Program-made: the position numbers and the translations under genes | Notes under the pieces: model-generated | Told to the model about the DNA's origin: nothing | What the model saw: only the letters and a program-made list of their open reading frames with translations | The model's database searches: none | NCBI RefSeq assembly: GCF_004138135.1 | Contig: NZ_RYFD01000036.1 | Location: 1 to 45,230 of the forward strand | Direction: 5' to 3' | Length of the DNA: 45,230 bases | Source: Candidatus Oscillochloris fontis | GTDB lineage: Bacteria; Chloroflexota; Chloroflexia; Chloroflexales; Chloroflexaceae | Shown: positions 13,496-29,016 of the stretch, piece after piece | How the letters are laid out: each line of letters opens with the position of its first letter | How positions within the stretch are numbered: the stretch's first letter is position 1

Positions 13496-13546
13496 AGAAA
13501 CACCACCACACAGAGCGCGAAAGCCGTAGAGTCCACCTTCGGTGGG

Positions 13547-14133: not shown

Positions 14134-14159
14134 AGAGATACTCGCTTTCACTACAGTCT

Positions 14160-14477
14160 TTAGTTAGCGCTCAACTCATCCTTCGGTGCAGTCTTGGCGG
14201 CTGGCTCACTCTCGGCCTTGGCCTCCCACTCATCAATCACCGTGCTGGCAACCTTGGCCAGATCGCCCGGAATACCAACCACAGCGGTCAGTGCTTCCTT
14301 GGCAGCATTGCGCAGGTGCTGACGCGAATCAGCGGGGAGCACCGCGAGAGGTAGCGTGATAACCGAGAGACCCACGCGGGCGATCCCGCCCCCGACCCCG
14401 ATCACCGTCTCAACGAGGTTGTCGCTCCGCGCGGTGCGGACGCTACGTACTCGCACTTCACCCTGAGTTTCGGACAT
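14160..14477 (-). CDS. Chlorosome envelope protein, CsmM type
   Basis: A 105-residue, roughly 11-kDa protein with a short basic N-terminus, a hydrophobic Gly/Val-rich stretch (about residues 25-50) suited to the chlorosome lipid monolayer, and an Ala/Glu/Lys-rich tail. It is paralogous to the next gene, and the tail is shorter. A GGGAGG site lies 7 nt before the ATG. It follows the bacteriochlorophyll synthase gene by 76 bp in the same direction. Length and context match CsmM of Chloroflexus; the identity is by recollection and gene order, not by alignment. Confidence 0.65.
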   Translation of the reverse strand: MSETQGEVRVRSVRTARSDNLVETVIGVGGGIARVGLSVITLPLAVLPADSRQHLRNAAKEALTAVVGIPGDLAKVASTVIDEWEAKAESEPAAKTAPKDELSAN

Positions 14478-15474: not shown

Positions 15475-15486
15475 ATCGCCCAATCA

Positions 15487-16919: not shown

Positions 16920-16952
16920 TTCTTTTTTGGCGGCGAAGCCGCCAAAAAAGAA
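16920..16952. repeat. Palindromic repeat with GGCGGC core, copy C
   Basis: 15-bp perfect arms (16920-16934 and 16938-16952) around GAA; the outer arm here is TTCTTTTTT. It lies 11 bp after the stop of the minus-strand hydrolase gene and could serve as its terminator. Confidence 0.8.
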
Positions 16953-16962
16953 CAAAAAGCTC

Positions 16963-17667
16963 TTACAACACCCGATCCCAGAGCGGTAAACCGGCTGGTT
17001 CACCATACCAGGGCTGCCCATGGAAGGGCGAGTGGGTTAATTCGGGTACGACCAAAAATTCCGCCCCACTCAGTGCGGCACATTCTAGGGTCGTAACGCC
17101 ATCGCCCCAGGCGTAGTCGGCTTGTGGGCCAGAGACGCGCCGGTAACTGCTGCTCGACATGCGTTCGACGATGTTTCCCTTGGGATTGCCCTGAATGGCG
17201 CTCCCAACTACCGAGGTGTAGTGAATTTCGGGGTAAAACGCCCCAGGGTAGGTATCGTTGATGAAGCTTACCGAAGTGCGCGTCCAATATTCGATACTGT
17301 GGTGGGGGGTTCCGAGCATAATCAGGCGCTGAACATAACGTCGCCCAGCGTAGATCTCGCCACAATAGGCTTCTTCGCCCAGGTACATGCGCGCCACACT
17401 GCCACCCACACTGTGCCCCAGGATCGTCACCTTCTCGGCTCCGCTGCGCTCTAGCGCCTGCTGCACTGTGTCGCGCAGGTGATTGATCACCGGGCGAAAG
17501 TCCCAATCGCGGGTGATCGCCCAGCGCAAACGACTGATCGGAGTAATCGAGACGTCGTAGTTGTAGGGGGCGGCCTCAAGGGCTTGGGCTAGGTTGACGA
17601 AGTCACTTGGGCCGGTCAAGTAGCCACCGATGATCACAAGTGGTTGTCGCATCTTGCCTCGTTCCAT
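16963..17667 (-). CDS. Lipase-like alpha/beta hydrolase, tandem copy 2
   Basis: A 234-residue cytoplasmic alpha/beta hydrolase. It begins with the strand VIIGGYLTGP and carries the nucleophile elbow GHSVGG, a GDGVTTLE acidic region and a C-terminal His in ELTHSPFHG. It is a paralogue of the preceding gene, sharing the GG-x-L-S/T-x-P start, RxxLGTPHH/LGTAHE, FYPGAFY and GDG patterns. Its ATG overlaps the TGA of that gene (ATGA), indicating coupled translation; ATG 17652, with GAGG upstream, is the alternative. The family resembles uncharacterised plastid and cyanobacterial lipases. The setting suggests lipid or pigment ester hydrolysis, but the substrate is unknown. Confidence 0.82.
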   Translation of the reverse strand: MERGKMRQPLVIIGGYLTGPSDFVNLAQALEAAPYNYDVSITPISRLRWAITRDWDFRPVINHLRDTVQQALERSGAEKVTILGHSVGGSVARMYLGEEAYCGEIYAGRRYVQRLIMLGTPHHSIEYWTRTSVSFINDTYPGAFYPEIHYTSVVGSAIQGNPKGNIVERMSSSSYRRVSGPQADYAWGDGVTTLECAALSGAEFLVVPELTHSPFHGQPWYGEPAGLPLWDRVL

Positions 17668-18347
17668 CAATCAAACCAGAGTGGTATCACATTTCGCGCA
17701 CCATACCAGTTGCTGGGCGCGTTGTAGGGTGCGTGCCGTGCTCCCTTCAATACCAGATTATCCGCACCGGCGAGGTAGCAACTGACGGTTGGGATGATCC
17801 CATCGCCGATCTGCTTCCCACTCCCAAAGGCGGTCTCGTAAGATTGGTAGGCCAGCATCTCTTCGAGGTTGCCGTACTTGCGCCCCTTGACGCTCTCGCC
17901 CGCAACCGAACGATATTGGATATGCTCGTAGAAGGCCCCAGGGTAGAACTCGTTGACCTGACCAGCAAACTCCTTGACCCAGATTTCATACGTTTCGTGG
18001 GCGGTGCCAAGGGTGGTGAGGCTGGCTACATAGCGCTGGCCATCATAGGTGACACCGGCGAAGGGCAGATGACCGAGATAGGCACGCGATACCCGCCCAC
18101 CGGCACTGTGGCCAATCAGATCGATGCGATCCGCGCCCGTTTCACGCAGGGCGAGTTGGACGGTATTAGCAACTAGATCAAGGACTGGGCTGAAGTGGGG
18201 ATCGCGTAGAGCAGCCCATTCGCGGCGGCTAATATCGGTGATGTAGACGATGCGGTTATAGGGGGGAGCAGCGAGGACACGGGCCATCGCAGTGTAGTCG
18301 GCGGGTGATGAGAGCCACCCACCTACGATCACAACCGGCCGGTTCAT
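17667..18347 (-). CDS. Lipase-like alpha/beta hydrolase, tandem copy 1
   Basis: A 226-residue alpha/beta hydrolase with VIVGGWLSSP at the N-terminus, nucleophile elbow GHSAGG, a LGTAHETYE segment, GDGIIPTVS and a C-terminal histidine in GARHAPY. The same unit is repeated in the next gene with an ATGA overlap, so this is a tandem duplication now expressed as one unit. No signal peptide is visible. The start at ATG 18347 lacks a strong ribosome site. The two copies keep the catalytic elements, so both are probably active. A role in galactolipid or wax-ester turnover of the chlorosome envelope is possible but only inferred from location. Confidence 0.82.
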   Translation of the reverse strand: MNRPVVIVGGWLSSPADYTAMARVLAAPPYNRIVYITDISRREWAALRDPHFSPVLDLVANTVQLALRETGADRIDLIGHSAGGRVSRAYLGHLPFAGVTYDGQRYVASLTTLGTAHETYEIWVKEFAGQVNEFYPGAFYEHIQYRSVAGESVKGRKYGNLEEMLAYQSYETAFGSGKQIGDGIIPTVSCYLAGADNLVLKGARHAPYNAPSNWYGARNVIPLWFD

Positions 18348-18434
18348 AGGTTTTCTCTTTGCAAACACTGATGATCTGGTAGGGATGAGACTTCATGGGC
18401 ATGAAGTTTAGGGCTGCTGCCCTAAAACCCACGG

Positions 18435-18533
18435 TTGGGGCTGCGCCCCAAACCCTTTTTTTCTCTGCTGTTGGCGGCGAAGCCGCCAACAGCAGAGAAA
18501 AAAGTGTTTTGCGGGGGAGGCGAAGCCTCCCCC
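18435..18533. repeat. Composite palindromic repeat, copy D
   Basis: Three consecutive inverted repeats: TTGGGGC-TGC-GCCCCAA (18435-18451), a 22-bp-arm palindrome with the GGCGGC-GAA-GCCGCC core (18457-18503; outer arm TTTTTTCTCTGCTGTT) and GGGGGAGGC-GAA-GCCTCCCCC (18513-18533). They lie between two minus-strand genes. Confidence 0.85.
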
Positions 18534-18556
18534 GATCCCCACCAATGGTTGATTGA

Positions 18557-19156
18557 CTACGCTTCGACTTTGATCGGGGTCTCTTCTTGATCGCCGTTGG
18601 CAACCATCACCTTGATCCGGCGGGGCTGGGTGCCAGGGGTACTCCCGCTGGGCAGCAGATCCGTCACCGTCTTGATCACACTCTGACCAAGCTTAACCAC
18701 GTCTTCGGTCTGGAAGAGGAACCAGCGGCTATACATATCGAAGACGCTGCGCGAGGTGCTGACAAGCTCTTTGCTGAACTCCTCAACTCCCTGAGGTGGT
18801 AACGCACCATGGACAAAGCCCTTCAGTGCGCCAGTGATCGAGAGCACATCGAATTGCCCCGAAACGGTTGGGCTACCGCCATTCCCCGTTGCCGGCTGGA
18901 AGGTTGGGGCACTGTAGCCGGACGATGCGGGTGGTGTGTACCCCGACATGTTCGAGGCTTGGAACGACGGGCTGCTCGGTGGTGTCCAGCCGCTGCTCGG
19001 AGCTGCTGCCGGAGTTGATTTGGCGACTGGGGCCGAACTGTAGCTTGCCGAACTGCTGCTGCCTGTGGCTGGAGCATCATCATACTCTAGGTTGAGGAAG
19101 CGACGCAGCCCTTCTGGCATCCAACTGTACGGCTTCTTCTGTTCATAGTTGCTCAT
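18557..19156 (-). CDS. Disordered Ser/Pro-rich protein with C-terminal helical region; candidate chlorosome-associated protein
   Basis: A 199-residue protein of no recognised family. A short N-terminal amphipathic segment (SWMPEGLRRFLNLEYDD) is followed by about 75 residues of low-complexity Ser/Pro/Ala/Gly. A phasin-like amphipathic helical region covers about 100-165, and the tail carries PRRIKVMV and ends in TPIKVEA. These two I-x-V motifs resemble those with which small heat-shock proteins bind alpha-crystallin domains. A GAGGTAG site precedes the ATG. It could coat an organelle-like surface, as phasins do. The location inside the chlorosome island is the main support. Confidence 0.6.
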   Translation of the reverse strand: MSNYEQKKPYSWMPEGLRRFLNLEYDDAPATGSSSSASYSSAPVAKSTPAAAPSSGWTPPSSPSFQASNMSGYTPPASSGYSAPTFQPATGNGGSPTVSGQFDVLSITGALKGFVHGALPPQGVEEFSKELVSTSRSVFDMYSRWFLFQTEDVVKLGQSVIKTVTDLLPSGSTPGTQPRRIKVMVANGDQEETPIKVEA

Positions 19157-19208
19157 AACTCTACCTCTTCATTGCGAACAGATGGCGCGATGCGCCGGTC
19201 GATCATCC

Positions 19209-20096
19209 TTATGAACCAAAAGCGAGCAACCGCCGCCGCTGGCGGGTGTGCGGTGCAAAACAGAAGTCGATGATCTGATCCAGATCGTCATTGGGATAGC
19301 GACGATCAAGGGTGGAGATCGACTCCAGCACATAGCTCAGTTGATCCGGCGAAATCTCGCGTGGACAACGCACAAACTGCTCGATCAGGTGGCGACGATA
19401 GCTCAGGCTGTAGCGCAAGCTGACCACGGCGAGATGGTTTAAGATTGCATCGCGCAGTTCAATGTCTTCTGTATAACGCTTCAGCCAGCGACCCAGACCG
19501 AGGTGTTCGCTGCGATCAAGGTAATAGTTTACCAGATCTGCTAGCCCAACGTCGCTGGTAATGTCGGCAATCTCTTCCCAGCGTTTATGAAACGATTGCC
19601 GCCCAAAGCTCGAAATATCACAGATCTGGGTGATGAGGTTACTCGCGGTGTAGTAGGGTTCACGCTCGAAGGTGCGCTGGAGCCCCGCTTCACGCTCGGC
19701 CAGCAGCGAGAGTGCTTCGCGCAACACCCCATCGCTATGGTCGTACCCCCCGTGGCGCATGTGCATCTCGTGGGCCAACTCGTGTAGGGCAATCCCCACG
19801 CTCCCATCTTCGTCCCAGCGCCCCAAAGTGACAACCGAGCCACTACTGGGCGAGAAGCTGCCGCTATCGCTCCAGGGACTCATCGCTGCCACATTATCCA
19901 TGGCCTCAAAGACAAGGCGCTGCTCAAGAACACCGGGGGTAAGGTTATTGCCCCACATCTGGGTTGCCAGACGGCGTACTTTACGTGCCATCTGACCCGG
20001 ACGGTAGGTATATTCACCGACCTGCAACGTTTGGTTGCCAGCTTGTTCCATGTCAATCAGCATGCGCTGGCCGCCGGAACGGAAGAGTAGTTGCAT
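19209..20096 (-). CDS. HEXXH-containing protein, possible zinc metallopeptidase
   Basis: A 295-residue cytoplasmic protein with the motif HELAHEMH (zinc-binding HEXXH at residues 105-109). Glutamates at 127 or 134 could be the third ligand, as in gluzincins. The rest is helical with many charged residues, and a proline/serine-containing loop precedes the motif. No named family is recognised. A GGGGGT site lies before the ATG at 20096, two bases after the preceding hydrolase gene, so the genes are co-transcribed. In Chloroflexus, CsmA is made with a C-terminal extension that is removed. This gene is the only visible protease candidate in the cluster, but the link is speculative. Confidence 0.6.
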   Translation of the reverse strand: MQLLFRSGGQRMLIDMEQAGNQTLQVGEYTYRPGQMARKVRRLATQMWGNNLTPGVLEQRLVFEAMDNVAAMSPWSDSGSFSPSSGSVVTLGRWDEDGSVGIALHELAHEMHMRHGGYDHSDGVLREALSLLAEREAGLQRTFEREPYYTASNLITQICDISSFGRQSFHKRWEEIADITSDVGLADLVNYYLDRSEHLGLGRWLKRYTEDIELRDAILNHLAVVSLRYSLSYRRHLIEQFVRCPREISPDQLSYVLESISTLDRRYPNDDLDQIIDFCFAPHTRQRRRLLAFGS

Positions 20097-20098
20097 GG

Positions 20099-21091
20099 TT
20101 ACCCCCTTACACCACGTAGAAATAGGCGCAGGATCTGTACGACCTGCTCAGGTAGCTCAAACAGAATCAGATGCCCACACTTTGGCACTTCGAGGTAGGT
20201 ACCGTGTTGGGCTAAGGCCATCAATTTTCGTCCATCGTTGGGTCGCATCACCGGATCGCCCGCTCCGGCCACCAGCAGCGTGGGCTGTTTCACCCGCCGC
20301 ATCTGTTCGGGGACGGCATCAAGCACTTCGCGCCGGGCAAGCTCGTGGGTCGAGATACGAATCGCGGCTGGTTCGCAGTAGCGTAGGCTAAGCGTACCGA
20401 GCTTAATATCCCCAATCGTGGGCGTATTTTGGGCCAGAACCAGCCGTGCATAGATGAAGGGTAACGGCCAGAACCCAGTCCGGGTGATCGGGCGCAGAAT
20501 CCGGTTGAAGATCGTATCGAGGGTCATCGGCAAGATAGATGACGCCACCCGATTATAGTTCATCAAACTAAAATTGAAGAAGGTGAGCGAGCGCACGCGA
20601 TCAGGAGCCGTGGCTCCATAGTGCAGTGCGATGAACGCCCCCAGTGAGAACGAGGCCACATGCTGGGGTGCCAGGTGCAGTGCATCGCCCAATGCCTGTA
20701 GATCCTCACTGAAACCCGCCACGGTATAGCCATGTGCCGGGTCATTGTCGGAGAAGCCGTGGCCCTTCAGATCATAGTTGATCACCCGATAGCCTGCCGC
20801 CGCCAACGGATCGATGATATGGTGCCACCAGAAGGCCGAACAGTCCCAGCCATGCACCAACACCAGCGGCTCCCCATCACGCGGGCCAACATCCTGGTAG
20901 TGGTGAACCACCCCATTCAGTTTAATGAACTTGGCGCGTTGTAGTAACTCGCGTTCATGCTCAAGACGGCGACGCTCGCCATGGCTGAGTTTCCCGGCCA
21001 ACTTCGCCTCAACTTCGGCGCGGTACTCCTCATACTTCTGTGTCGGCAGCGTTGAGTTTGTGGAGGGCGCGGTCATGATCTGGCCGTTCAT
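20099..21091 (-). CDS. Alpha/beta hydrolase with N-terminal coiled extension
   Basis: A 330-residue protein. The first 55 residues form a charged helix (EEYRAEVEAKLAG to ERELLQRAKF), followed by an alpha/beta hydrolase with HGWDCSAFWW oxyanion loop, nucleophile elbow SFSLGA (serine instead of the usual first glycine), acidic residue in VAGAGDPVM and histidine in KCGHLILFE. It resembles epoxide hydrolase/haloperoxidase-like members. AGGA lies about 10 nt upstream of ATG 21091. It heads the block after the IS605-like remnant and is followed at 2 bp by the HEXXH gene. The helical extension may mediate partner or membrane binding. Confidence 0.82.
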   Translation of the reverse strand: MNGQIMTAPSTNSTLPTQKYEEYRAEVEAKLAGKLSHGERRRLEHERELLQRAKFIKLNGVVHHYQDVGPRDGEPLVLVHGWDCSAFWWHHIIDPLAAAGYRVINYDLKGHGFSDNDPAHGYTVAGFSEDLQALGDALHLAPQHVASFSLGAFIALHYGATAPDRVRSLTFFNFSLMNYNRVASSILPMTLDTIFNRILRPITRTGFWPLPFIYARLVLAQNTPTIGDIKLGTLSLRYCEPAAIRISTHELARREVLDAVPEQMRRVKQPTLLVAGAGDPVMRPNDGRKLMALAQHGTYLEVPKCGHLILFELPEQVVQILRLFLRGVRG

Positions 21092-21499
21092 AGATATATC
21101 CTGCCTTTAGGCGCGGAAACCCACGAGCTTTAGCCGTGGGAGGAGTGCCCCGCTTGAGCGGCTTTAGCCCAGAGTTGTACAGACGTTCGATATGTAGTAG
21201 AAATGTTCTGTACGAGGCACCCTGTCGCGAAGGATTGCAGGGCAAACGGTTGGTACATACACAACTGAACCTTGGCGGTTCCATCGGGGAAACCTCCGAT
21301 GGGTAAAAGGTTGAAGGTGGACGTTCCTTCGACGTGCAACCGCTGCCGGGTTCGCCCGGCAGGGCCTCGGTAAGCAGGCCATACTACTCGGATGCCAGTC
21401 GCTCATCGGCTGGTAGCGCCAGAGTAAAGCCCAAGTCCTTTAGGCTTGGGTAGCTTACTGCCAATCTCCGTCAAGAGCAACGCATAGATCGCTGTGTCG
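21092..21499. other. 408-bp gene-free interval
   Basis: Between the P-loop-less ArsA gene and the hydrolase gene on the same strand. Most of it is the transposase-less IS200/IS605-like remnant (21112-21452). It interrupts an otherwise compact minus-strand gene series. No convincing promoter was identified for the gene at 21091. Confidence 0.75.
21112..21452 (-). mobile_element. IS200/IS605-like remnant without transposase
   Basis: A 340-bp segment bounded by two hairpins of the form seen at IS200/IS605 or IS1341-type ends. One is CCCACG...CGTGGG with an apical CTTTAG (21120-21140); the other is CCCAAG-TCCTTTAGG-CTTGGG (21430-21450). On the minus strand the end reads CTCCTCCCACGGCTAAAGC, typical of right ends. 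The interior holds further hairpins (for example GCCGGG-TTCG-CCCGGC near 21345) and no open frame resembling TnpA or TnpB. It may be a PATE-like non-autonomous element, possibly retaining omega-RNA-like sequence from a TnpB element. Confidence 0.55.
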
Positions 21500-22600
21500 T
21501 TACTCAACCCACAGGCGCAGCGACTCACCCTCAACACGGGCACGCAGGCGGCCACCTTCACTCAGACCAGGCAGTAACACATGGCGGCGGAGTTGACCGA
21601 TGCGGATGACCACCTCTTCGTTGGCGATGGCGATATCGAGTGCTTTCGCATCCAGGAAGGGGATACCGAGCCGCAATTCCCGTTCGCCAACAGCGGGGAA
21701 GGGGGTTGGTGTCCCGATATCCCCATCGCGGTAGAGCGCAGCACCGCGCAGTGCCCAGGTATCGCGGTCGGCGGGAGAGGTGGGAAGCGGCCCAAAGTGC
21801 AATGCTGGCCGATAGGGGCCAGCCTCTGGGCTGAAGGTGTGGCGCAGATCGGCCCCGACCTCACTGAGATCAGCGGGGACGATCACCTTATCCGTCGCGG
21901 TGCCATACAGCCCCAAGGCGACCAGATCATTGCGGATGGGGGGCAAGTGCAACTCTTCGGGAGTGGCGACGAGGCGTATCCGCGCCCCCGTATTTGCGTT
22001 GAGGCGTGCGCGATGCTCCTCAAACTCCGCCCGCAGATCCTGGAGTGGTGCGGTGGTACTTGGCGGGATGAGCGCTGTGGGAATGATTGCCGTCTCTTGC
22101 GACGTGCGCGAACGACCGGGGCCACGGTCGAGGCCAAAGACGAGCCGCAACAACCAGCGCATGGTATCGGAGAGTGCCAGGGCACGCACCAGAGTGTCAG
22201 GAGCCGGGCCATCAACAACGAGCAGATCGAATTGTTTGCTCTGAAGCGTGCGGGCGGCGACGAGGAGGGCGCTAACGGCATCAATTCCTGGGAAACAGGG
22301 GATCTCATCGCTGCCAATATCGCGCAGGCGTGAGGCCAAACCACTGCGCAGCGAAGGGCGAATCTGTTCCCAGCGATTCCCGATCTCATCAAGCGGGCCG
22401 ATTTCGACCGCCGAGAGATTCGGTTCAAGCTCCAAGGGATGCGTGGTCAGATTCTGCGCCAGGAGGGCACCGATCAGATGATTTGGCCCAGTCGAGGCAA
22501 TCAGCACACGCTGACCGCGCCGTGCCGCGTGGACTGCGGTGGCAAGGGCAGCGGCGCTCTGCTGAACCATCGTATGGCCGGAAAAGATCAGTATTTGCAT
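21500..22600 (-). CDS. ArsA/Get3-like protein lacking the P-loop
   Basis: A 366-residue homologue of the two neighbouring ArsA ATPases. The N-terminal strand MQILIFSG is kept, but the expected GKGGxGKT is replaced by HTMVQQSA, and the switch II DxAPTGxTLRLL reads DGPAPDTLVRAL. ATP binding in the usual mode is therefore unlikely. The C-terminal 60 residues still match the alpha-crystallin-like (ArsA HSP20-like) domain (LGIPFLDAKALDIAI... with IRIGQLRRHVLLPGL). It is probably a pseudo-ATPase subunit that pairs with the active neighbours. No ribosome site is obvious before ATG 22600. It is intact over its whole length, which argues against a decaying pseudogene. Confidence 0.8.
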   Translation of the reverse strand: MQILIFSGHTMVQQSAAALATAVHAARRGQRVLIASTGPNHLIGALLAQNLTTHPLELEPNLSAVEIGPLDEIGNRWEQIRPSLRSGLASRLRDIGSDEIPCFPGIDAVSALLVAARTLQSKQFDLLVVDGPAPDTLVRALALSDTMRWLLRLVFGLDRGPGRSRTSQETAIIPTALIPPSTTAPLQDLRAEFEEHRARLNANTGARIRLVATPEELHLPPIRNDLVALGLYGTATDKVIVPADLSEVGADLRHTFSPEAGPYRPALHFGPLPTSPADRDTWALRGAALYRDGDIGTPTPFPAVGERELRLGIPFLDAKALDIAIANEEVVIRIGQLRRHVLLPGLSEGGRLRARVEGESLRLWVE

Positions 22601-22666
22601 AGTGTTGCGTTACAAGTGTTGAATATTGAGTGCCCAACACTCAACACGCAACACAGAGCGTTGGTG

Positions 22667-23911
22667 TTAGGCGGCTTCGACACGCATATTGTCGGCAGAC
22701 TTGGGCGTTCGTTCGGATTGATCATTGCTTGGACTTTCAAAGAATTCCAAGCGCAGCACGCCATCTTCGTAGCGATTCTTCCCCAGGACACAATCGTAGA
22801 GGATGCGTGGCAGGGAAATGGTTCGGTGCAACCGCCCGATGGTCAGTGTCAAATCCGGGCCATTGCGCACAATCTCAATCGCCTCGTTATCATCAATAAA
22901 CGGCAATCGCAGGCAGAGATCAAAGAGCCCCGGTTCACCCTCATCATTCCACTGGTCGAGCCAGATCGGACGATCTTCAAAGAGGAGTGCCCCCGGATCG
23001 GCATCGCCAAAGGTGGCACGACCAATTCGTTCGAGCGCCTCCACCCCAATCGGTTCACCCTCCTGCAAGACCGTGCGGAAGATGGGGGTGGGCGTAAAAC
23101 TGGTATCAATCTGTTCGAGGTAGCCCTGCTGGAGTGCCACCCAGTAATCAAAATAGGGGCCGAGATCCGAGCGCCGTGGCAGGATCTTATTGACCATAAC
23201 AGCATCGAGCATCAGGCCATAGAGATTGATGAAGGTATAGGCGCGGCGCGTTTCGAGGAGCGGCAGTTTCTCAGGATTGAGCACCAAGCGCAGGCTGACA
23301 TCGCTACTCAGCAAGAAGTTTGCGAGGCGCTCCATCTTATCGAGCAAGGTTCCCACCTCATCGAAGAACCGATCCTCGGGCAGATCGCGGCGGAAGGGGC
23401 GGGCCACATTGGCAATCCCGCGATAGACGCGGAAGAACTTCTTGCCCACATCCCCACCGATGATCAGTTCGGGGTACGCCAAAAGGCGCAGGGTATTGCC
23501 GGTAGGGGCGGTATCAAGAATAATCGCATCCCAGCGCCCACTCTGAGCCTCGGCCATCACTCGTTGCAGCGCGAGGATCTCATCAAGGCCGGGTTGATTC
23601 GCCAGTTCAGCCGCTGTGGAACGCTCAACCCCCCGATTGGAGTAGGTCGAGGTCACAAACTGCTGGAAGCCACTCAGATTCTGACGCCACTCATAGAGCG
23701 TATCAATCTCAAGCCCATACAGATGCGGGCTAATCAGCGTTGGGCGGTCGCGGCTAATCTCGACACCGAGGGCATCTGCCAGCGAGTGAGCGGGATCGCT
23801 TGAGAGCACGAGTGTACGCCGCCCCATCCGCGACAACAGCGTTGCCGTTGCGGCTGAGATGGTCGTCTTACCCGTACCACCTTTACCAGAATAGATAATG
23901 ACTCGCGTCAT
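22667..23911 (-). CDS. ArsA/Get3-like ATPase with C-terminal alpha-crystallin-like domain (ArsA-2)
   Basis: A 414-residue ATPase of the SIMIBI class. The deviant Walker A GKGGTGKT is at residues 9-16, a switch I-like SSDPAHSLAD follows at about 37-46 and switch II is DTAPTGNTLRLL. A C-terminal alpha-crystallin-like domain is seen from about residue 340 (LRLPFIDDNEAIEI... TIGRLHRTISLP). This layout matches Get3d-type proteins known from photosynthetic organisms rather than arsenite pumps, and no arsB or arsR gene is nearby. A GGAAGG site is placed as in ArsA-1. It probably handles a hydrophobic cargo such as a chlorosome envelope protein or pigment. Confidence 0.85.
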   Translation of the reverse strand: MTRVIIYSGKGGTGKTTISAATATLLSRMGRRTLVLSSDPAHSLADALGVEISRDRPTLISPHLYGLEIDTLYEWRQNLSGFQQFVTSTYSNRGVERSTAAELANQPGLDEILALQRVMAEAQSGRWDAIILDTAPTGNTLRLLAYPELIIGGDVGKKFFRVYRGIANVARPFRRDLPEDRFFDEVGTLLDKMERLANFLLSSDVSLRLVLNPEKLPLLETRRAYTFINLYGLMLDAVMVNKILPRRSDLGPYFDYWVALQQGYLEQIDTSFTPTPIFRTVLQEGEPIGVEALERIGRATFGDADPGALLFEDRPIWLDQWNDEGEPGLFDLCLRLPFIDDNEAIEIVRNGPDLTLTIGRLHRTISLPRILYDCVLGKNRYEDGVLRLEFFESPSNDQSERTPKSADNMRVEAA

Positions 23912-23946
23912 GGTGCCTTCCGAGAAGTTACGCCCTTCCCGTGCAA

Positions 23947-23974
23947 CCCCGCCCCACGCAAGCGCGGGGCGGGG
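23947..23974. repeat. GC-rich hairpin between co-directional genes
   Basis: CCCCGCCCC (23947-23955) pairs with GGGGCGGGG (23966-23974) across a 10-nt loop that can extend the stem. It lies between the stop of the larger PH-like gene... read on the minus strand it precedes ArsA-2's ATG... that is, it is in the 93-bp spacer between these two genes. It lacks a U-tract and may stabilise or attenuate the transcript. Confidence 0.6.
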
Positions 23975-24004
23975 CAGAAGCGGGAGTGGAGATAGGGGGC
24001 CACA

Positions 24005-25519
24005 CTACGCATCATTGCTGACCGCGACCGGAGCCTGAGGTTGCTCTTCTGCTACAGGTGTAGGCGGCTCATCATTGCGTTTAATCGTCATGCGGCGTAC
24101 AGGAACCCGTGCTGCCGCCGGTGTTGTTTCCACCGGCTCTGCGGCGAAGGGTGGGGCTTCGGTTGCCGTTGCGCCATTGGTTCGCTTCACCGCGACTTGT
24201 TGGCGTACCGCGATGCGGGCTGATGCGGGCATCGAGCGTACAACCGGTGGCGGGCTATCGGGCATGGCCTCATCTACCTCTGCCTGTTCGACCCGCCGGA
24301 CATTAATGCTCCGGCGCACGGGCGCTTCACTCGGCACACTATCGGTTGCCGGTGATGGTTCTGCGTTCAGGATTTGGCTGGGCGGGCTGCGCCGGGGAGC
24401 GACGGCTGCCGTCTTGACCTGAAGGCGACGCGAGGCCGATGCTGGCCCGGCTGTACCTTCGCTATTCGGCAGTGGCTCAGTGAGACGTACTGCCGCACGC
24501 AGCATCGGAGCTACTGGAGCGAGAGGCCCTTTATCCACCTCTTGCTGCACTGCTGCCTGATAGATCCCCATCATCGCCGTGCGGCGCACCTGGGGATTCT
24601 GCAAGCCACTGACCAGATCGGTCGCGCCACTCATCATCTCACCAGCGCGGCGCATGCCCGTCATCAGGCGGCGCGGAGCCTCAAGGAAGAGTTGGATAGA
24701 TCGGCTCATCTCATAGACGCTTGGTTGCTCCATCATGGATGGCAGCGGCGACATAGGCGAACCCGTATCCATTGGTGGCTGATAGGTTGGCGTTCCAGAG
24801 CCAGCCGGTTGGCTACTGCGGCGGCTCTCGTAGGCATTGATCAGATTGCTACTATTGGGTACCAACGGCTCTTCTGGCTCACCAAAGGCACGCTGCCACC
24901 AATTCTTGCGTCGCTTCTCAACCTGACGCGGTGGTGGGGGCGGCGGGGGCGGCGGCTCTGGCGCAAAGAAAGTCGCATGCTCGCGATCAGGTGCGGGGAA
25001 CTGGTCTGTAAATCCACGGATGAGCGTCTCGCCGGAGACCCCGGACACCACCTGATCGCCGACCCAGGCGACCATATTGGCCAACGGGGTCACATCCTCA
25101 GCGGGCATATAGTCGAGGGTATTGGTAATCACACGCTCATCTTCGGCCTGCCCATTTGCCGCGATCCCCTTGACGACAATCCGCCGACTGCGGGGAGCGA
25201 TGGGAGCCAAGCGGAAAGCCAGGATGACGCGGCCATGCCAAGGGTCCCACGTCTCAGCGCGGGCCACATCAACATCCTTCCAGACGAAGGAGTCAACGGT
25301 ATCATTAAAGAGTCCCCGCGCCCATGTCACAAGGCGCTTATCAGTCAGCGCCACAAAATCGGAGAGTGCGACGCCGCCGATACGTCGGCGATTCTCGTCC
25401 AGCAGGACACCGTCAAAGATGGCCAGCAGCGTCTCATCCTCTTCGAGGATACCGCGATGGCGCAACTCATCGGCGCTCGCTGGAGTCACATGGCTGCCGA
25501 GGTACGGTCGGATAATCAT
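24005..25519 (-). CDS. PH-like N-terminal domain protein with long disordered tail (paralogue 1)
   Basis: A 504-residue protein. Residues 1-175 form a domain with a bacterial PH-like pattern (DETLLAIFDGVLLD ... LSDFVALTDKRLVTWARG), homologous to the N-terminus of the next upstream gene. A nine-proline run (near residue 190) is followed by a basic, aromatic patch (KRRKNWWQR), a helical middle and a disordered tail. The tail repeats short basic motifs: RRLQVK, RSINVRR, RIAVRQQVAVKR, RVPVRRMTIKR and a final APVAVSNDA. GGAGGT lies before the ATG. I cannot assign one of the named Csm proteins. It is likely a scaffold or assembly factor at the chlorosome or baseplate, by context. Confidence 0.65.
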   Translation of the reverse strand: MIIRPYLGSHVTPASADELRHRGILEEDETLLAIFDGVLLDENRRRIGGVALSDFVALTDKRLVTWARGLFNDTVDSFVWKDVDVARAETWDPWHGRVILAFRLAPIAPRSRRIVVKGIAANGQAEDERVITNTLDYMPAEDVTPLANMVAWVGDQVVSGVSGETLIRGFTDQFPAPDREHATFFAPEPPPPPPPPPRQVEKRRKNWWQRAFGEPEEPLVPNSSNLINAYESRRSSQPAGSGTPTYQPPMDTGSPMSPLPSMMEQPSVYEMSRSIQLFLEAPRRLMTGMRRAGEMMSGATDLVSGLQNPQVRRTAMMGIYQAAVQQEVDKGPLAPVAPMLRAAVRLTEPLPNSEGTAGPASASRRLQVKTAAVAPRRSPPSQILNAEPSPATDSVPSEAPVRRSINVRRVEQAEVDEAMPDSPPPVVRSMPASARIAVRQQVAVKRTNGATATEAPPFAAEPVETTPAAARVPVRRMTIKRNDEPPTPVAEEQPQAPVAVSNDA

Positions 25520-25586
25520 CGTCTACCTCCATAGGACTGCGGGCAGGGGCGGATCGGCGGCGGCTAGCCGGATCTCCAAGCCCATA

Positions 25587-26765
25587 CTAGGATCGGGCTT
25601 CATCAACATCGGCATCGCCGGAACCGCTGATCGAGACCGGGGGGCGCGGCCCGGTTGTGCGAGGACTAGCACCATTATTGGCAGGCCCGCGACGGCGCAG
25701 CGGGATCTCACGCCGATCCGAATTGGTTGGAGCGGGTTCTGGTGCTGCGGCTTGCGGTGCGGGGGCAGACGTCTGGCTCCCAGGTCGTTCGCGGTTACGA
25801 AACGGTATCTCGTGGTACTGCATCGCTGAACCCTGTGCGGCAGGCTCTGGGGTTGGTGCAGAACTTGGAGCGGCGGCCTGATAGGGTGTCGGTGCTGGTG
25901 CGGGGGCTGGTTCGGGCGCAGAGCGACCAGTTTGGCGATTGATAAACGCCATCGCCATCTGCTGGGCACTCGGATTGGTTGCGACAGTCTGCATCAACTC
26001 ATTGACGGCCCGAATCGTCTCAGTCAAGTCACGCAGACTGGTCGTATTCAGCGCATTGAGGTCAAAGGGCAGATCGGCATCACGAATCGAGCGACGCAGC
26101 GTATCCCAGGCTGAACGTGCCAAACGACTCGCCGCATAGATCCGTTCTGGGGGCAGACTGACCAATTCTTGGTTAAAGCCAGCCACCGGCGTGAGTTGTT
26201 GCTGCCCAGACGCACCAGGCCAACGATAGGGCGACTCACCGGGGCGGAGGCCATCTACATGGCCATAGATCTGTTCACTCAGAACAGCCAGAATATCGGG
26301 GCCAGCCTCACGCGCACTAATACCAGCGTTCAACAGATCGCGGGCAGTCTCGGACGCATTGCGCAGCAGCGCCATGCCAGGCTGAAGATTGGCAACTGGG
26401 AGCAGAGCGAGCGTAAAACGCTGTTCGCCTTCATCTTCCTCAGCATCATCAAGTGCGACAAAATTGAAGATGATTTGGGCGTGGAGCGGATCAAGCCCTT
26501 GGCCCTGAATCGAGGCCAATTCGGCAAGAGGGAAGGCGTAGCAAATATGACCGCCGTAGTCACGCGCCCAGAGCAGAATGCGCAGCGTCGTGATCAGGCA
26601 GTAGTCATGAAGCGTGGGTCCGCTCAGGCGTTTGCCGTTAGCATCCAGCAAAACACCATCGAGTGCGACGAGCACCTGCTCATCACGCTCTAGCAGCCCC
26701 AGCGTCTCAAGCTCTCCGAGGTGGGCGGGGACGACCGTATGGCTATAGTAGAGCAGGTTGATCAT
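25587..26765 (-). CDS. PH-like N-terminal domain protein with disordered tail (paralogue 2)
   Basis: A 392-residue protein whose first 170 residues parallel the neighbouring 504-residue protein: EDE/RDE-x-L-L/V-A-x-x-DGVLLD, LxD-F/Y and L-x-x-WARD. A helical middle follows (about 195-275), then a Pro/Ala-rich disordered tail with YHEIPFRNR, RREIPLRRR and PPVSISGSG. The ATG at 26765 is chosen because it aligns with the start of the paralogue; an earlier ATG at 26807 lies in a low-complexity intergenic repeat. It lies directly downstream of csmA. The duplicated architecture and conserved position suggest a hetero-oligomeric pair. Function is unknown. Confidence 0.65.
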   Translation of the reverse strand: MINLLYYSHTVVPAHLGELETLGLLERDEQVLVALDGVLLDANGKRLSGPTLHDYCLITTLRILLWARDYGGHICYAFPLAELASIQGQGLDPLHAQIIFNFVALDDAEEDEGEQRFTLALLPVANLQPGMALLRNASETARDLLNAGISAREAGPDILAVLSEQIYGHVDGLRPGESPYRWPGASGQQQLTPVAGFNQELVSLPPERIYAASRLARSAWDTLRRSIRDADLPFDLNALNTTSLRDLTETIRAVNELMQTVATNPSAQQMAMAFINRQTGRSAPEPAPAPAPTPYQAAAPSSAPTPEPAAQGSAMQYHEIPFRNRERPGSQTSAPAPQAAAPEPAPTNSDRREIPLRRRGPANNGASPRTTGPRPPVSISGSGDADVDEARS

Positions 26766-26811
26766 CAGGGTGGTATACCAGGATACAGGATACAGGAGAT
26801 AGGGCATAGGA

Positions 26812-26836
26812 GACAGCGAGGAACTCCTCGGCTGTC
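26812..26836 (-). other. Hairpin between csmA and the PH-like gene
   Basis: GACAGC-GAGG / CCTC-G-GCTGTC forms a 10-bp stem with one bulge and an AACT loop just 3' of csmA on the minus strand. No U-run follows. It may stabilise a short csmA mRNA or reduce read-through, which would fit the high demand for CsmA. Confidence 0.5.
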
Positions 26837-26869
26837 CCCTGTTCCTAACTCCTGTACCCTACAGCCCGA

Positions 26870-27112
26870 CTAGCGATTGAAGCGCGAGCGAATGCGCTTC
26901 GGGCGGAAGCTGCTCACGGCCGGGGTGCTGAACGAACCCTCGCCGCTGCCGCTGCGGGAGATGCCGGGGTATGCGTTGCGATTGATGGTCTCAACGGCTG
27001 CCGACGTTGCCTGCAGCGCATTGGAAACCCACTGCCAGTGCCCCTGGAACATGATGTCGCCAATTTGAGCGACTTGACCAGCGGACTCAGAGAACCAGCC
27101 TCGAGTGGCCAT
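26870..27112 (-). CDS. csmA: Chlorosome baseplate protein CsmA (pre-protein)
   Basis: An 80-residue protein. Residues 2-51 (ATRGWFSES... to NAYPGI) match mature CsmA, including His25 in MFQGHWQW, the proposed bacteriochlorophyll a ligand. The remaining 29 residues form a Ser/Gly-rich then basic tail ending RPKRIRSRFNR, which in Chloroflexus is removed on maturation. CsmA forms the paracrystalline baseplate that passes excitation energy from bacteriochlorophyll c aggregates to the membrane. A perfect AAGGAGG lies 7 nt before the ATG. A consensus TATAAT at 27149-27154 suggests its own promoter within the cluster, and hairpins flank the gene. Confidence 0.96.
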   Translation of the reverse strand: MATRGWFSESAGQVAQIGDIMFQGHWQWVSNALQATSAAVETINRNAYPGISRSGSGEGSFSTPAVSSFRPKRIRSRFNR

Positions 27113-27148
27113 ACAAATTCCTCCTTAAAGGTAGACCGGACGCTCCTC

Positions 27149-27173
27149 ATTATAGGCCACGGGGCGGAGCCCC
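27149..27173 (-). promoter_or_regulatory. Possible internal csmA promoter and upstream hairpin
   Basis: On the minus strand a perfect TATAAT (27154-27149) lies about 37 bp before the csmA start. Just upstream is GGGGC-GGA-GCCCC (27161-27173), which could end or attenuate the preceding ArsA-1 transcript. No -35 hexamer is visible at the normal distance, so the promoter call is tentative. Confidence 0.45.
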
Positions 27174-27185
27174 GGTAGACCCCTG

Positions 27186-28385
27186 TTATCGGGTGATGCC
27201 CTGGGGGGCGTAGAAGGGTACGATCAGCCAAGAATCTTCCATCTCGGCCTGGCCTGCCTCCAACCCGGTTAGGCTGAGCGGCAAGGTCATAATCCGGCGG
27301 AAGTCCCCAATCTGCACCACGAGCTCATCGCCGTTCTGGAACAGATCGAGTTGGCTGACATCAGCGAACGGCAGCTTAATCCGTACTCGGTAGCTGCCAT
27401 CGGGCGCTTTGTTGATGTCCATCGGCGATTCTTTGTAGACAATCGCCGCCGGGTTCACGTCCCCGTAGACATCACGGCCCATTATTCGCAACTTCTCGAT
27501 ACCGACTACCTCTTCGGGGTAGTACGGTACATGGCGGATCGGCAACGGATTAAACGAGTGGTGAACTTCCTGGAGGTAGCGCTGCTGCACATCCTTCCAG
27601 TGGTTCAGATAACCGCTGTCTTTGTCGACCGGCAGGATCTTGTTCACCACCACCGTATCGACCGTCATCCCATACATCGAGAGATAGGTCAGAGCGCGCT
27701 GGCTCTCTTTGATGACCATCTTCTCAGGGTTCATCACGAGCCGGACAGAGGTCTCTAGCGGGTTGGTCAGGATTTCAGTGACACCAACCATCTGGGCGAA
27801 CATGTCGTCCACTGCCTCATAGACCTCGGTGGGGGCGATCATTTTGTTGAGCGACGGGTTGAGTTTACTCATTGGCCGTAGCAACGGCTTGATGACAAAC
27901 TTCTCCGCTCCGCGCAGCATACCCATTGCCCACTTGAAGGTCTCAGGTGACGAGAGCAACCGGAGGGTTTCGCCCGTTGGCGCACAGTCAACGACGAGCA
28001 GATCGTAGTCGCCTTCGTCGCGATGTTTCTTAATGCGGATGAGCGGGAATGCTTCTTCCATCCCTGGAAGGATGCTCATCTCATCAGCCAGCATCCCCTC
28101 AACCCCTTGCTCGATCATCAACTGGGCAAAGTGCTCACGCACAACACCCCAGTTTGATTCAATATCATGGTGAATACTGACCTCAAGCGCATCTAAGTGC
28201 GAGGTGATCTTCACCGGTTCTGGCCCCAGTGAGCCGTCAATATCGAGCGAGTCGGCCAAACTATGCGCCGGGTCGGTACTCATAATCAGAGTTCGGAGAC
28301 CCATGTCTGCGGCCCGCAGCGCGGTTGATGCAGCGACACTTGTCTTGCCTACGCCGCCCTTGCCGGTAAAGATAAGAGTACGCAT
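27186..28385 (-). CDS. ArsA/Get3-like ATPase with C-terminal alpha-crystallin-like domain (ArsA-1)
   Basis: A 399-residue ATPase with GKGGVGKT at residues 8-15, STDPAHSLAD switch I, DCAPTGETLRLL switch II and the membrane-cargo helical region between. The last 70 residues show the alpha-crystallin-like fold pattern (LPFADVSQLDLF ... VQIGDFRRIMTLPLSL). It is the first gene of the minus-strand chlorosome series, behind the promoter at 28570-28598, and directly precedes csmA. GGAAAGG lies 5 nt before the ATG. There are no arsenical resistance partners nearby. By family and context it is Get3d-like and may chaperone CsmA or another hydrophobic client; arsenite transport is unlikely. Confidence 0.87.
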   Translation of the reverse strand: MRTLIFTGKGGVGKTSVAASTALRAADMGLRTLIMSTDPAHSLADSLDIDGSLGPEPVKITSHLDALEVSIHHDIESNWGVVREHFAQLMIEQGVEGMLADEMSILPGMEEAFPLIRIKKHRDEGDYDLLVVDCAPTGETLRLLSSPETFKWAMGMLRGAEKFVIKPLLRPMSKLNPSLNKMIAPTEVYEAVDDMFAQMVGVTEILTNPLETSVRLVMNPEKMVIKESQRALTYLSMYGMTVDTVVVNKILPVDKDSGYLNHWKDVQQRYLQEVHHSFNPLPIRHVPYYPEEVVGIEKLRIMGRDVYGDVNPAAIVYKESPMDINKAPDGSYRVRIKLPFADVSQLDLFQNGDELVVQIGDFRRIMTLPLSLTGLEAGQAEMEDSWLIVPFYAPQGITR

Positions 28386-29016
28386 GTGTGCCTTTCCAGG
28401 ATCGGGATGTACAAATGATCAAATGGGGCTAACGGGTAGCCCGAGCCAGCCATGCGACGGCACCACGGTCGCTAGAGTGTGCGTTGCGATGATTGCTCGG
28501 CTTTTTTTGCTTAAATGCCAAAAGCGACTTGTCTCGAAATTATTGTCGTGCCTTCCTGACTGTGCTGCAATAGTACCACGATTGCGTAGCAGTGTCAACC
28601 AAAATAGCTCTTGTCAATGGGCTATGGCTATGCTGCGCGGTGTGGCTCTGACGCGGCGAATCTGCCTGTCCAGTCAGTCTAACGCACTGCATAAACAGGT
28701 GGATGATGTCATTATTTCCCGCTTTCTGGGCCAGTGTGTCGCCTGGCTGATGTCAACCTTTTGTACCCTCGGTTTGGGTCGTCGTTGTATGATTTGTAAC
28801 CTTGCTGGCCCGATAGGTAGTTATTTTACAACTCTATGGAACTCTCTGCGGCTCATGAACGTCATACTCTTATGGGCTATGCAGAGCGAGGTGGTGCATC
28901 GAAATGCCGTGCTTGGTTCGCTGATGGCTCACATTTTGGGCGTTTGTAGTCGGTCGTTCGATGTGCTTTGTATTGCTATGGTTGAGATTGGACTACTTTT
29001 TGGCGGGAGGCTGCTC
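28386..29016. other. 631-bp divergent intergenic region
   Basis: No credible gene. It holds the minus-strand promoter of the ArsA-1/csmA series (28570-28598), a second TTGACA on the same strand (28618-28613), and a leader of about 180 nt. The plus-strand frame upstream of 29017 is open but has no coding character or ribosome site and lies over the 5' end of ArsA-1. I recognise no structured RNA here. Confidence 0.65.
28570..28598 (-). promoter_or_regulatory. Consensus promoter of the ArsA-1/csmA gene series
   Basis: On the minus strand, perfect TTGACA (28598-28593), a 17-nt spacer and TACTAT (28575-28570). The start is expected near 28563, giving a leader of about 178 nt before ArsA-1. A second TTGACA lies 20 bp upstream, so two overlapping promoters or an activator-type repeat are possible. 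Confidence 0.75.

Follow-up and report, generated by a model that had tools for sequence, protein, structure and literature searches.

The Get3d proteins AtGet3d and NosGet3d were found to bind a tail-anchored client and to hydrolyse ATP, and their nearest relatives were reported to be cyanobacterial, green sulfur and green non-sulfur bacterial proteins, the green bacterial ones retaining good switch and A-loop regions (PMC10248533, in excerpt). In Chloroflexus aurantiacus, csmA was assigned to Caur_0126, along with bchK (Caur_0138), csmM (0139), csmN (0140) and csmP (0142), and the csm/bch cluster was drawn with its uncharacterised genes in white (Fig. 4C of Tang et al. 2011, PMC3150298, in excerpt). 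For the formation of chlorosomes two hypotheses, budding and aggregation, have been put forward (PMC9316378, in excerpt), and the chlorosome proteins besides CsmA were described as poorly conserved (PMC10972752, in excerpt). An ArsA insertion was reported to be unique to the suborder Chloroflexineae, which has chlorosomes (PMC6180586, in excerpt).

The window, a stretch of 45,230 nucleotides of Candidatus Oscillochloris fontis, was found by a check of the open reading frames to contain all the minus-strand genes that an earlier note on this DNA had named between 16963 and 28385, in the places given, together with a further conserved gene, p199, that its list had missed (Table 1). The CsmA identity was borne out by the Pfam family match. 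The series had been called uninterrupted, which holds for the strand and may not hold for transcription: strong hairpins were found in three gaps, and the gaps after arsA3 and lipB measured 408 bp and 387 bp, respectively. The match of abh to the BchO model TIGR03056 reached 105.6 bits against a cut-off of 172.55 and does not identify it as BchO.

Table 1. Features of the conserved gene block in the window
Feature	Coordinates	Strand	Remarks
ArsA1	27186-28385	-	399 aa; PF02374 2.6e-92, PF17886 1.1e-21; Get3d-type, C-terminal alpha-crystallin domain
CsmA baseplate protein precursor	26870-27112	-	80 aa, 8.76 kDa; PF02043 E 2e-27; 2k37 E 0.00039
CsmA C-terminal stretch, residues 54-80, putative propeptide	26873-26953	-	carries SGSGE and FRxKxIxSRF
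PH1	25587-26807	-	N-terminal PH-fold domain (predicted), middle helices, disordered tail
PH2, PH1 paralogue	24005-25519	-	PH1 profile matches PH2, E 1e-13 to 2e-17
ArsA2, ArsA/Get3 ATPase (likely) with alpha-crystallin domain	22667-23911	-	PF02374 2.7e-69, PF17886 5e-15
ArsA3, degenerate ArsA paralogue	21500-22600	-	PF02374 1.3e-25, PF17886 9.5e-8
abh, alpha/beta hydrolase	20099-21091	-	top NCBIfam match BchO, below cut-off
HEXXH protein, gluzincin model	19209-20096	-	HELAH 105-109 at 19770-19784; E127 at 19716-19718
p199, Pro/Ala-rich, fast-evolving	18557-19156	-	conserved ALPPQG core, RRIKV motif; no Pfam family
lipA, lipase-like alpha/beta hydrolase A	17667-18368	-	GHSAGG
lipB, lipase-like alpha/beta hydrolase B	16963-17670	-	present in 17/32 fetched loci
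bchU-like methyltransferase	15487-16575	-	PF00891; position agrees with PMC3150298
bchK-like UbiA prenyltransferase (BChl c synthase)	14554-15483	-	PF01040 6e-33
csmM	14160-14477	-	position (PMC3150298), conserved order, csmN paralogue
csmN	13720-14151	-	position (PMC3150298), conserved order
NDH-2-like flavoprotein (ndh), end of conserved block	12317-13621	-	PF07992, conserved order
Strong inverted repeat, p199-lipA gap	18441-18519		RNA fold z -9.1
Hairpin after lipB (lipB-bchU gap), same family as p199-lipA repeat	16927-16958		z -5.1
Hairpin between csmN and ndh, same family as p199-lipA repeat	13593-13624		z -6.3

A total of 32 csmA loci were fetched, of which 29 were long enough for the series to be judged and 27 reached csmN. 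The arsA1 gene was found to adjoin csmA in all 32 loci, and the order arsA1-csmA-ph1-ph2-arsA2-abh-hexxh-p199 was kept in 29 of the 29 sufficiently long ones, with arsA3 present in 28 of them and missing at the G038 locus. The csmM-csmN pair was present in 27/27 loci reaching that far, along with bchK in 26/27 and full-length bchU in 23/27. The comparison of relatives proposed in the earlier note returned a conserved gene order at the csmA loci examined, and the conservation is far beyond chance.

The genome-wide scans for single island genes covered PH1 and the HEXXH protein within the Chloroflexota; the other major chlorosome group is the green sulfur bacteria. The PH1 profile was found in 33 of the 33 csmA-bearing genomes of the order and in G026, whereas the HEXXH protein was found in 32 of the 33 and in both G026 and G021. 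A type II reaction centre but no csmA was found in 31 genomes of the order, and 29 of these, one presumed to be Roseiflexus sp. RS-1, contained neither protein; the two exceptions were incomplete assemblies containing island pieces, G026 (fragmented; L167/L168) and G021 (L169-L171). In a draw of 400 genomes of the phylum, PH1 and the HEXXH protein were found in an identical set of 22, every one of which contained csmA. The presence of the same genes in chlorosome-less relatives, which had been named as the observation that would count against a chlorosome role, was thus not encountered for PH1 and the HEXXH protein in those 29 of 31 genomes. The ArsA_HSP20 copy number was 5-9 in csmA-bearing genomes and up to 5 in the csmA-less f4, and alone did not separate the two groups.

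The block probably encodes chlorosome-building machinery, because its order is conserved at the loci examined and PH1 and the HEXXH protein were found in no csmA-less relative apart from the two incomplete assemblies with island pieces. That it is a dedicated chlorosome module is held with high confidence. The dedicated pathway of the earlier note, which would build the chlorosome envelope or baseplate, stands as a chlorosome locus, in view of the order and of PH1 and the HEXXH protein tracking csmA; a single all-or-none pathway fits less well with the missing arsA3 at G038, the patchy lipB and the csmA-less G020, which retained arsA3 beside csmM/csmN-like ORFs and ndh.

A four-gene core, arsA1-csmA-ph1-ph2, was also found in G085 ('Ca. 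Chlorohelix', which has a type I reaction centre and belongs to a different order) and in G086, and is newly worked out here. The HEXXH protein was found in both genomes, and in 'Ca. Chlorohelix' it was encoded, like ArsA2, elsewhere and not adjoining csmA. The 'Ca. Chlorohelix' core was found with none of the island hydrolase families and with no bchU alongside, and no bchK-like gene was seen within the stretch of G085 read around it; an alpha/beta-hydrolase-like ORF of a different kind was noticed by eye two genes upstream on the opposite strand. In G086, a bchK-like gene adjoined arsA1 in divergent orientation. This last arrangement, the frequency of bchK and full-length bchU in the loci reaching csmN, the lipase-like and BchO-like hydrolases as conserved block members, and the density consistent with phospholipid in the chamber of AtGet3d (PMC10248533, in excerpt) would all suit ArsA proteins that carry pigments or lipids in place of structural proteins and, together with the hydrolases, provide the chlorosome with BChl c, quinone, wax ester or galactolipid, bchU and bchK forming the enzymatic end of this route. 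Such a supply role is nevertheless unlikely, as the 'Ca. Chlorohelix' core is devoid of the island hydrolases and bchU, the G085 stretch of a bchK-like gene, and arsA1 adjoins csmA, not the bch genes, at every fetched locus. Still less likely is an order kept only through co-regulation with phototrophy, the proteins having separate, partly housekeeping roles. The csmA, csmM, csmN, csmO, csmP and csmY transcripts were reported to follow a shared nocturnal pattern in C. aggregans (PMC8004040, in excerpt), which accords with it, as do the hairpins at the three gaps, but PH1 and the HEXXH protein are absent from 29 csmA-less phototrophs of the order and the core survives with a different reaction centre and in otherwise different surroundings.

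In the ArsA proteins, the ArsA_ATPase and ArsA_HSP20 (alpha-crystallin) domains were found above the cut-offs in all three. The P-loop and switch I were intact in ArsA1 (33/33 orthologues) and ArsA2 (31/31) and lost in ArsA3 (kept in 0/29), so the block likely encodes two ATPases and one degenerate paralogue, and the three ArsA/Get3-like proteins claimed earlier were upheld by their domains, not as three ATPases. The proposed tie of Get3d-type ArsA proteins with an alpha-crystallin domain to phototrophs agrees with PMC10248533 (in excerpt). In a tree of Chloroflexota sequences only, with five csmA-less genomes sampled, ArsA1 (99/99) and ArsA2 (100/99) each formed a clade joining Chloroflexales and Chlorohelix, and neither clade contained a member from those five genomes. 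The TIGR00345 model was above its cut-off for ArsA1 and ArsA2; the ParA and MinD models scored weakly on them, Get3/ArsA being best by a wide margin. Among the proteins of the block, only the bchK-like enzyme was found to exceed a 19-residue hydropathy of 2, so no Get1/2-like membrane receptor was evident.

PH1 was predicted to contain strands at residues 30-122 followed by a helix at 123-145, giving the seven-stranded barrel and C-terminal capping helix of a PH domain. The model was matched by Foldseek at E 1e-4 and reached Z up to 11.6, with residues 8-139 matching bacterial PH domains (e.g. 3hsa, 3dcx) at Z 9.6-9.8, which supports a predicted PH fold. The PH-like label of the earlier note was weak in sequence (bPH_3 at E 0.03, below cut-off, in PH2; no Pfam match in PH1) and gained its footing from the predicted fold of PH1. 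The PH1 tails contained motifs of the YHEIPLRRR / RREIPLRRR type and those of PH2 orthologues motifs such as RRIQVR and RRSISVRR. The motif [RKE]-I-x-[VLI], which was chosen after the sequences were seen, occurred 1.68 times per PH1 tail against 0.06 in shuffles (n=28), 1.48 against 0.14 per PH2 tail (n=31) and 0.89 against 0.12 per p199 (n=28), and p<=0.05 was reached by single tails in 93% of PH1, 55% of PH2 and 11% of p199. Peptides of the I-x-I/V type dock in the groove of alpha-crystallin domains. The motifs hint at a docking of the tails on the ArsA alpha-crystallin domains, which is doubtful; the groove may not be free, because the Get3d alpha-crystallin domains were described as being without the features for dimers and oligomers (PMC10248533, in excerpt).

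Folds and tails of this kind would suit adaptors. A module that places chlorosomes along the membrane or partitions them at division and does not build them, with ArsA1 and ArsA2 as P-loop proteins of the MinD/ParA/Get3 class and PH1 and PH2 as surface adaptors, would also draw on the weak ParA and MinD scores and on the placing of cargo by the deviant Walker A ATPases of that class. It is improbable, since Get3/ArsA are by far the best families and come with an alpha-crystallin domain that ParA/MinD proteins are not known to contain, and since positioning would have no need for a gluzincin distributed like csmA.

The putative propeptide motif [FV]RxKx[IV]xSRF was found in 33/33 CsmA sequences. 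In the chlorosomes of O. trichoides and Cfx. aurantiacus, CsmA was reported to run as a band of 5.7 kDa (PMC3175400, in excerpt), against 8.76 kDa encoded here, and C-terminal proteolysis was reported for the CsmA of Chlorobaculum and most homologues (PMC4992139, in excerpt); from the difference in mass we infer the removal of residues 54-80, with a putative exact cleavage site. In the HEXXH protein, H105, E106, H109 and E127 were invariant in 32 sequences, Chlorohelix included. It models as a thermolysin-like gluzincin and putative peptidase, gluzincins (M4, M30, M1, M2) scoring between Z 9.5 and roughly 6 across 152-199 residues; the top match was modest (Z 9.5 over 177 residues), designed helical repeats also reaching Z 6.1. 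No Foldseek match was found at E<=0.001 and no Pfam or NCBIfam family above cut-off, and the protein shows no sign of export because it contains no strongly hydrophobic segment. Maturation of CsmA by this protein is a reasonable conjecture with somewhat less than an even chance. The maximum 19-residue hydropathy was 0.16 in CsmA, 1.69 in CsmM and 1.49 in CsmN; CsmA is not a classic Get3 client because it contains no long hydrophobic segment, and by sequence CsmM and CsmN fit better. The handling of CsmA by ArsA1 is evenly balanced.

The best overall explanation, favoured with modest confidence, is a locus for chlorosome biogenesis in Chloroflexota with ArsA1-CsmA-PH1-PH2 as its oldest core, to which ArsA2 and the HEXXH protein add other parts specific to chlorosomes. 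It draws on gene content, order, co-occurrence, motif status, predicted folds and motif enrichment, and the client, docking and cleavage steps we infer. ArsA1 and ArsA2, as Get3d-type ATPases, would hold small amphipathic proteins in an ATP-dependent manner, taking up CsmA in the cytosol, and in Chloroflexales probably CsmM and CsmN too, and would pass them to the lipid-monolayer organelle as it grows, by analogy with Get3 and tail-anchored proteins; ArsA3 would be a non-catalytic partner. The predicted PH-fold domain of PH1 and its putative counterpart in PH2 would attach to a lipid or protein surface and their basic I-x-V/L tail peptides may dock on the ArsA alpha-crystallin domains, so that both would act as receptor or scaffold. 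The HEXXH protein would cut off the conserved C-terminal extension of CsmA, after which the baseplate could crystallise. An unrecognised organelle-assembly machine, in which chlorosome-specific Get3-type ATPases, adaptors with docking tails and a propeptidase deliver and mature the proteins of a lipid-monolayer organelle, is only a tentative possibility; if true, this machine would predate the choice between reaction centres in Chloroflexota, and might represent the first known bacterial targeting pathway serving a monolayer. A conserved gene set beyond CsmA, spanning reaction-centre types, is now named. The HEXXH protein is a candidate CsmA-processing enzyme, for which no named enzyme was found in the excerpted literature, and members of the Get3d family are now tied to one organelle.

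Compared with the described systems, the cluster of PMC3150298, whose uncharacterised members receive no discussion in the excerpt, is extended by the exclusivity, folds and depth of these members and by the Chlorohelix core. The ArsA insertion serves in the excerpt of PMC6180586 as a taxonomic marker, with no link drawn there to chlorosome assembly. Bacterial PH domains (e.g. 3hsa, 3dcx) have the fold predicted for PH1 residues 8-139, whereas PH1 also contains an extended disordered tail in which basic I-x-V/L motifs recur. The thermolysin-like gluzincins (M4, M30, M1, M2) and the HEXXH protein have in common the HEXXH motif and downstream Glu on a similar predicted fold, but the latter was found only in csmA-bearing genomes or assemblies with island pieces. 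With Get3/TRC40 of the GET pathway, the TIGR00345 match is common and an ATP-driven delivery of hydrophobic proteins is the proposed shared logic; here the target would be a lipid-monolayer organelle, and the PH proteins would stand in for a Get1/2-like membrane receptor. With AtGet3d and NosGet3d, the island ArsA proteins share the ArsA/Get3 fold and C-terminal alpha-crystallin domain; unlike Get3d, they form several paralogues locked to a chlorosome locus, of which one (ArsA3) is degenerate and two (ArsA1, ArsA2) belong to clades that are chlorosome-specific within the sample.

The block (arsA1-csmA-ph1-ph2-arsA2-arsA3-abh-hexxh-p199-lipA-lipB-bchU-bchK-csmM-csmN-ndh) was found to contain, on the minus strand of the window, all of the ORFs named in the earlier note. 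By Pfam, it contained three ArsA ATPases, each with an ArsA alpha-crystallin domain, the chlorosome baseplate protein CsmA and three alpha/beta hydrolases (abh, lipA, lipB). HEXXH, PH1, PH2 and p199 matched no Pfam family over the cut-off, the last being a further block member of 199 aa absent from the earlier list. A bchU-like methyltransferase and a UbiA-type synthase were found 3′ of the island, followed by csmM/csmN, in the same order as in Cfx. aurantiacus. In the cluster drawing of PMC3150298, csmA (Caur_0126), bchK (0138), csmM (0139) and csmN (0140) of that species are placed together with uncharacterised genes in white. That csm and bch genes cluster was thus known before; the subject here is the white genes.

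Of the 82 genomes searched in the order, 33 had a CsmA match (PF02043), among them the genome of the window. Gene order was compared at 32 csmA loci other than the window's; three contigs end early, leaving 29 loci judged through p199. The arsA1 gene was found immediately before csmA at all 32 loci, followed by the complete series ph1, ph2, arsA2, abh, hexxh and p199 at 29 of 29, and it was absence of linkage to csm genes that the earlier note had counted against its reading. The arsA3 gene was present at 28 of 29 loci (missing in G038) and lipB at 17 of 32. Among the 27 loci reaching csmN, csmM-csmN was found in all, bchK in 26 and full-length bchU in 23; of the other four, two contained only a bchU relic and two contained none. 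An apparent csmA/ph1 swap in the listed order of locus L065 arose because a stop-to-stop frame starts early, and the coordinates give the usual order. The block proteins were 27 to 96% identical to those of the window across loci; gene order has therefore outlasted much sequence change. A contig scan that might have reached green sulfur bacteria or Chloracidobacterium returned 28 loci, all from Chloroflexota, the named ones including Chloroflexus, Oscillochloris, Chloroploca and Viridilinea.

The loci without intact bchU were L059, L064, L065 and L068, with G036, G003, G029 and G017 among their genomes. The relic comprised 34 residues in G036 and 60 residues in G003, which also lacked bchK, and no bchU match was found at the locus in G029 and G017. 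Without BchU, the expected pigment is BChl d. A second arsA1-like gene was found 3′ of ndh in G018 (end of locus L070). Divergent beside arsA1 in the window lies a von Willebrand A/zinc-ribbon protein, with similar matches there in 12 of 32 loci.

Genome-wide profile scans were made with PH1 and HEXXH, to which the following counts apply; a genome without a CsmA match is termed chlorosome-less. PH1 was found in 34 of the 82 genomes of the order, namely all 33 with csmA plus G026, and HEXXH also in 34, namely 32 of the 33 plus G026 and G021. The csmA-bearing genome without a HEXXH match (G032) has a csmA contig that ends inside ph1. The assemblies of G026 and G021 are 84% and 71% complete and both contain island pieces (L167-L171), and they were therefore taken as chlorosome bearers with the csmA contig missing. 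Genes for a type II reaction centre scored above the family cut-off in 63 of the 82 genomes, 31 of them csmA-less: G021, G026 and 29 others (6 in f1, the window's own family, 1 in f3 and 22 in f4). The earlier note had named occurrence in chlorosome-less relatives as contrary evidence; in profile searches, neither PH1 nor HEXXH was found in these 29 csmA-less phototrophs. In a 400-genome draw from the phylum, with scoring limited to a few top candidates from each genome, PH1 was found in 22 genomes and HEXXH in the identical 22, every one with CsmA.

The csmA-less genome G020, from a phototroph of the window's family (Chloroflexaceae), was found to contain arsA3 followed by csmM-like and csmN-like ORFs (likeness judged by eye) with ndh adjoining, and profile searches of this 91% complete genome found no PH1, HEXXH or csmA. 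The group resembles a remnant left behind when the chlorosome was lost; its arrangement suggests that ArsA3 goes with CsmM/CsmN.

The PH1 model contained a PH fold at residues 12-160 (pLDDT block means 68-93 there, 60 overall). This predicted structure matched PDB entries up to Z 11.6, with bacterial PH domains at Z 9.6-9.8, and PH2 was found to be a PH1 paralogue by PH1 profile search. The tails of both were disordered or of low confidence. Little in them was conserved beyond short basic motifs, among them YHEIPLRRR, RREIPLRRR and RRSISVRR, with RRIKV in p199. The motif [RKE]-I-x-[VLI] occurred 1.68 times per PH1 tail against 0.06 in shuffles of the same tails (n=28), 1.48 against 0.14 in PH2 (n=31) and 0.89 against 0.12 in p199 (n=28), with single-tail p<=0.05 in 93%, 55% and 11%, respectively; as the motif was picked after the sequences had been inspected, this enrichment is to be read as descriptive more than as the outcome of a blind test. 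Similar peptides were found in the tails of 'Ca. Chlorohelix'. In small heat-shock proteins, I-x-I/V peptides dock on alpha-crystallin domains; the tail motifs appear to resemble such peptides, and all three ArsA contain such a domain. In hhalign comparisons, CsmM and CsmN were found to be paralogues of each other (98.5%), p199 was rejected as a distant CsmM/CsmN relative (probability under 1%), and the central regions of the two PH proteins matched neither each other nor the csm proteins.

The HEXXH model was confident (pLDDT 90.9). Foldseek gave no hit at E<=0.001; re-alignment of its candidates placed thermolysin-like peptidases at the top (Z 9.5, rmsd 3.6, 177 residues), followed by M30, M1 and ACE-type peptidases. 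The residues H105, E106, H109 and E127 were invariant in 32 sequences, Chlorohelix included. The re-alignment and motif conservation point to a thermolysin-like gluzincin. The encoded CsmA has 80 residues (8.76 kDa), and residues 2-53 amount to 5680 Da. A CsmA band of 5.7 kDa is given for O. trichoides and Cfx. aurantiacus chlorosomes in PMC3175400, and C-terminal proteolysis for Chlorobaculum and most homologues in PMC4992139. The putatively removed part contained [FV]RxKx[IV]xSRF in 33 of 33 sequences. HEXXH, as a putative metallopeptidase that tracks csmA and lies in the same block in Chloroflexales, would be the obvious candidate for this cut. CsmA also contained [SA]GSG[EDQ] (33/33), and SGSG[ED] was found in 25 of 29 PH1 tails. 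A common cleavage site there is a mere lead, since matches of this type were also found in abh (8/30) and ArsA2 (1/31) and, by eye, Chlorohelix proteins are without it.

The P-loop and switch I were kept in ArsA1 (33/33) and ArsA2 (31/31) and in none of 29 ArsA3, which is therefore likely a non-catalytic partner. The ArsA tree contained 59 sequences, from at most 12 chosen loci of the 29-33 per island family together with the non-island ArsA of nine genomes; overlapping truncated duplicates and the second arsA1-like gene of L070 were left out, and the fused ArsA of G005 (627 aa) entered the alignment as two halves. Long branches were flagged at two joins, that of G064_L173 (G064 being presumably Roseiflexus RS-1) with the remaining sequences and that of the ArsA2 group with the G005 halves. 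Four rows also had odd composition; the two joins were therefore not used, and only the support of the ArsA1 and ArsA2 clades was relied on. These clades contained no member from the five csmA-less genomes sampled, the other ArsA of which sit in a general clade also holding csmA-bearing genomes. Copy number alone was rejected as a chlorosome marker, the ranges of the complete per-genome counts overlapping those of csmA-less f4 genomes; the island paralogues were told apart by the tree. A fourth clade (100/97) was found in three of four csmA-bearing and none of five csmA-less genomes sampled. Its neighbourhoods contained no csm gene or island family, only weak vWA-type matches, and it was therefore left out of the system.

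Long hairpins were found 3′ of p199, lipB and csmN, so the block may not be a single transcript. Three of the four GC-rich palindromes lie in block gaps; they form strong RNA hairpins and are perhaps REP-like elements or bidirectional terminators. A promoter scan gave 11 promoter-like sites against 7.2 expected, from which no evidence was drawn.

Coordinates of features in the window and at other loci
Feature	Location	Remarks
GC-rich palindrome	window 28-53	near-identical family, TTGGCGGCGAAGCCGCCAA core
GC-rich palindrome	window 13593-13624	same family
GC-rich palindrome	window 16927-16958	same family
GC-rich palindrome	window 18441-18519	same family
1206-aa protein	window 6403-10023 (+)	Rv2525c-like glycoside-hydrolase-type domain, Inhibitor_I36 match, YCF48/BNR-type repeats
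von Willebrand A/zinc-ribbon protein	window 28204-30321 (+)	
Fourth ArsA clade, members	G000 C37; G007 near 604 kb; G085 near 2,535 kb	G007 presumably Cfx. aurantiacus
Fourth ArsA clade, locus	L162 7020-8201	
Fourth ArsA clade, locus	L163 6566-7738	
Fourth ArsA clade, locus	L219 6708-8087	
arsA3, csmM/N-like ORFs, ndh	G020, L215, contig C263, 9873-13355	
Third PH-like protein	G085, L220 6351-8294	not linked to csmA; tail ends in repeated PKRIKL units
ArsA2 in tandem with general-clade ArsA	L216 8155-10577 (G085); L194/L196 (G086)	

The locus is a dedicated, old chlorosome locus. This main point of the earlier reading stands on the conserved order and on the specificity of PH1 and HEXXH, the detail of the proposed assembly pathway being unproven. 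There is a good case that Get3d-type chaperones act in organelle assembly; CsmA, contrary to this, is not strongly hydrophobic. Literature searches found no main text linking ArsA/Get3 proteins with chlorosome assembly, and nothing related under the locus tags Caur_0125, 0127-0129 and 0132. For one green sulfur bacterium, five Get3d copies are given in PMC10248533.

Across the class, CsmA was found in 35 of 158 genomes, the two beyond the order being G085, a match to 'Ca. Chlorohelix allophototropha', and G086, both of another order. Each contained arsA1-csmA-ph1-ph2 in this exact order, with a bchK-like gene divergent and adjoining arsA1 in G086 and no other island family seen around the core. 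HEXXH was found away from it (E 2e-50 in G085, 1e-55 in G086). In the tree, their ArsA1 fell into the ArsA1 clade of the island (support 99/99), and further copies into its ArsA2 clade (100/99). 'Ca. Chlorohelix allophototropha' is described in PMC10972752 as having a type I reaction centre, with just two further chlorosome homologues reported and chlorosome proteins apart from CsmA poorly conserved; a conserved set spanning Chloroflexales and Chlorohelix alters this picture.
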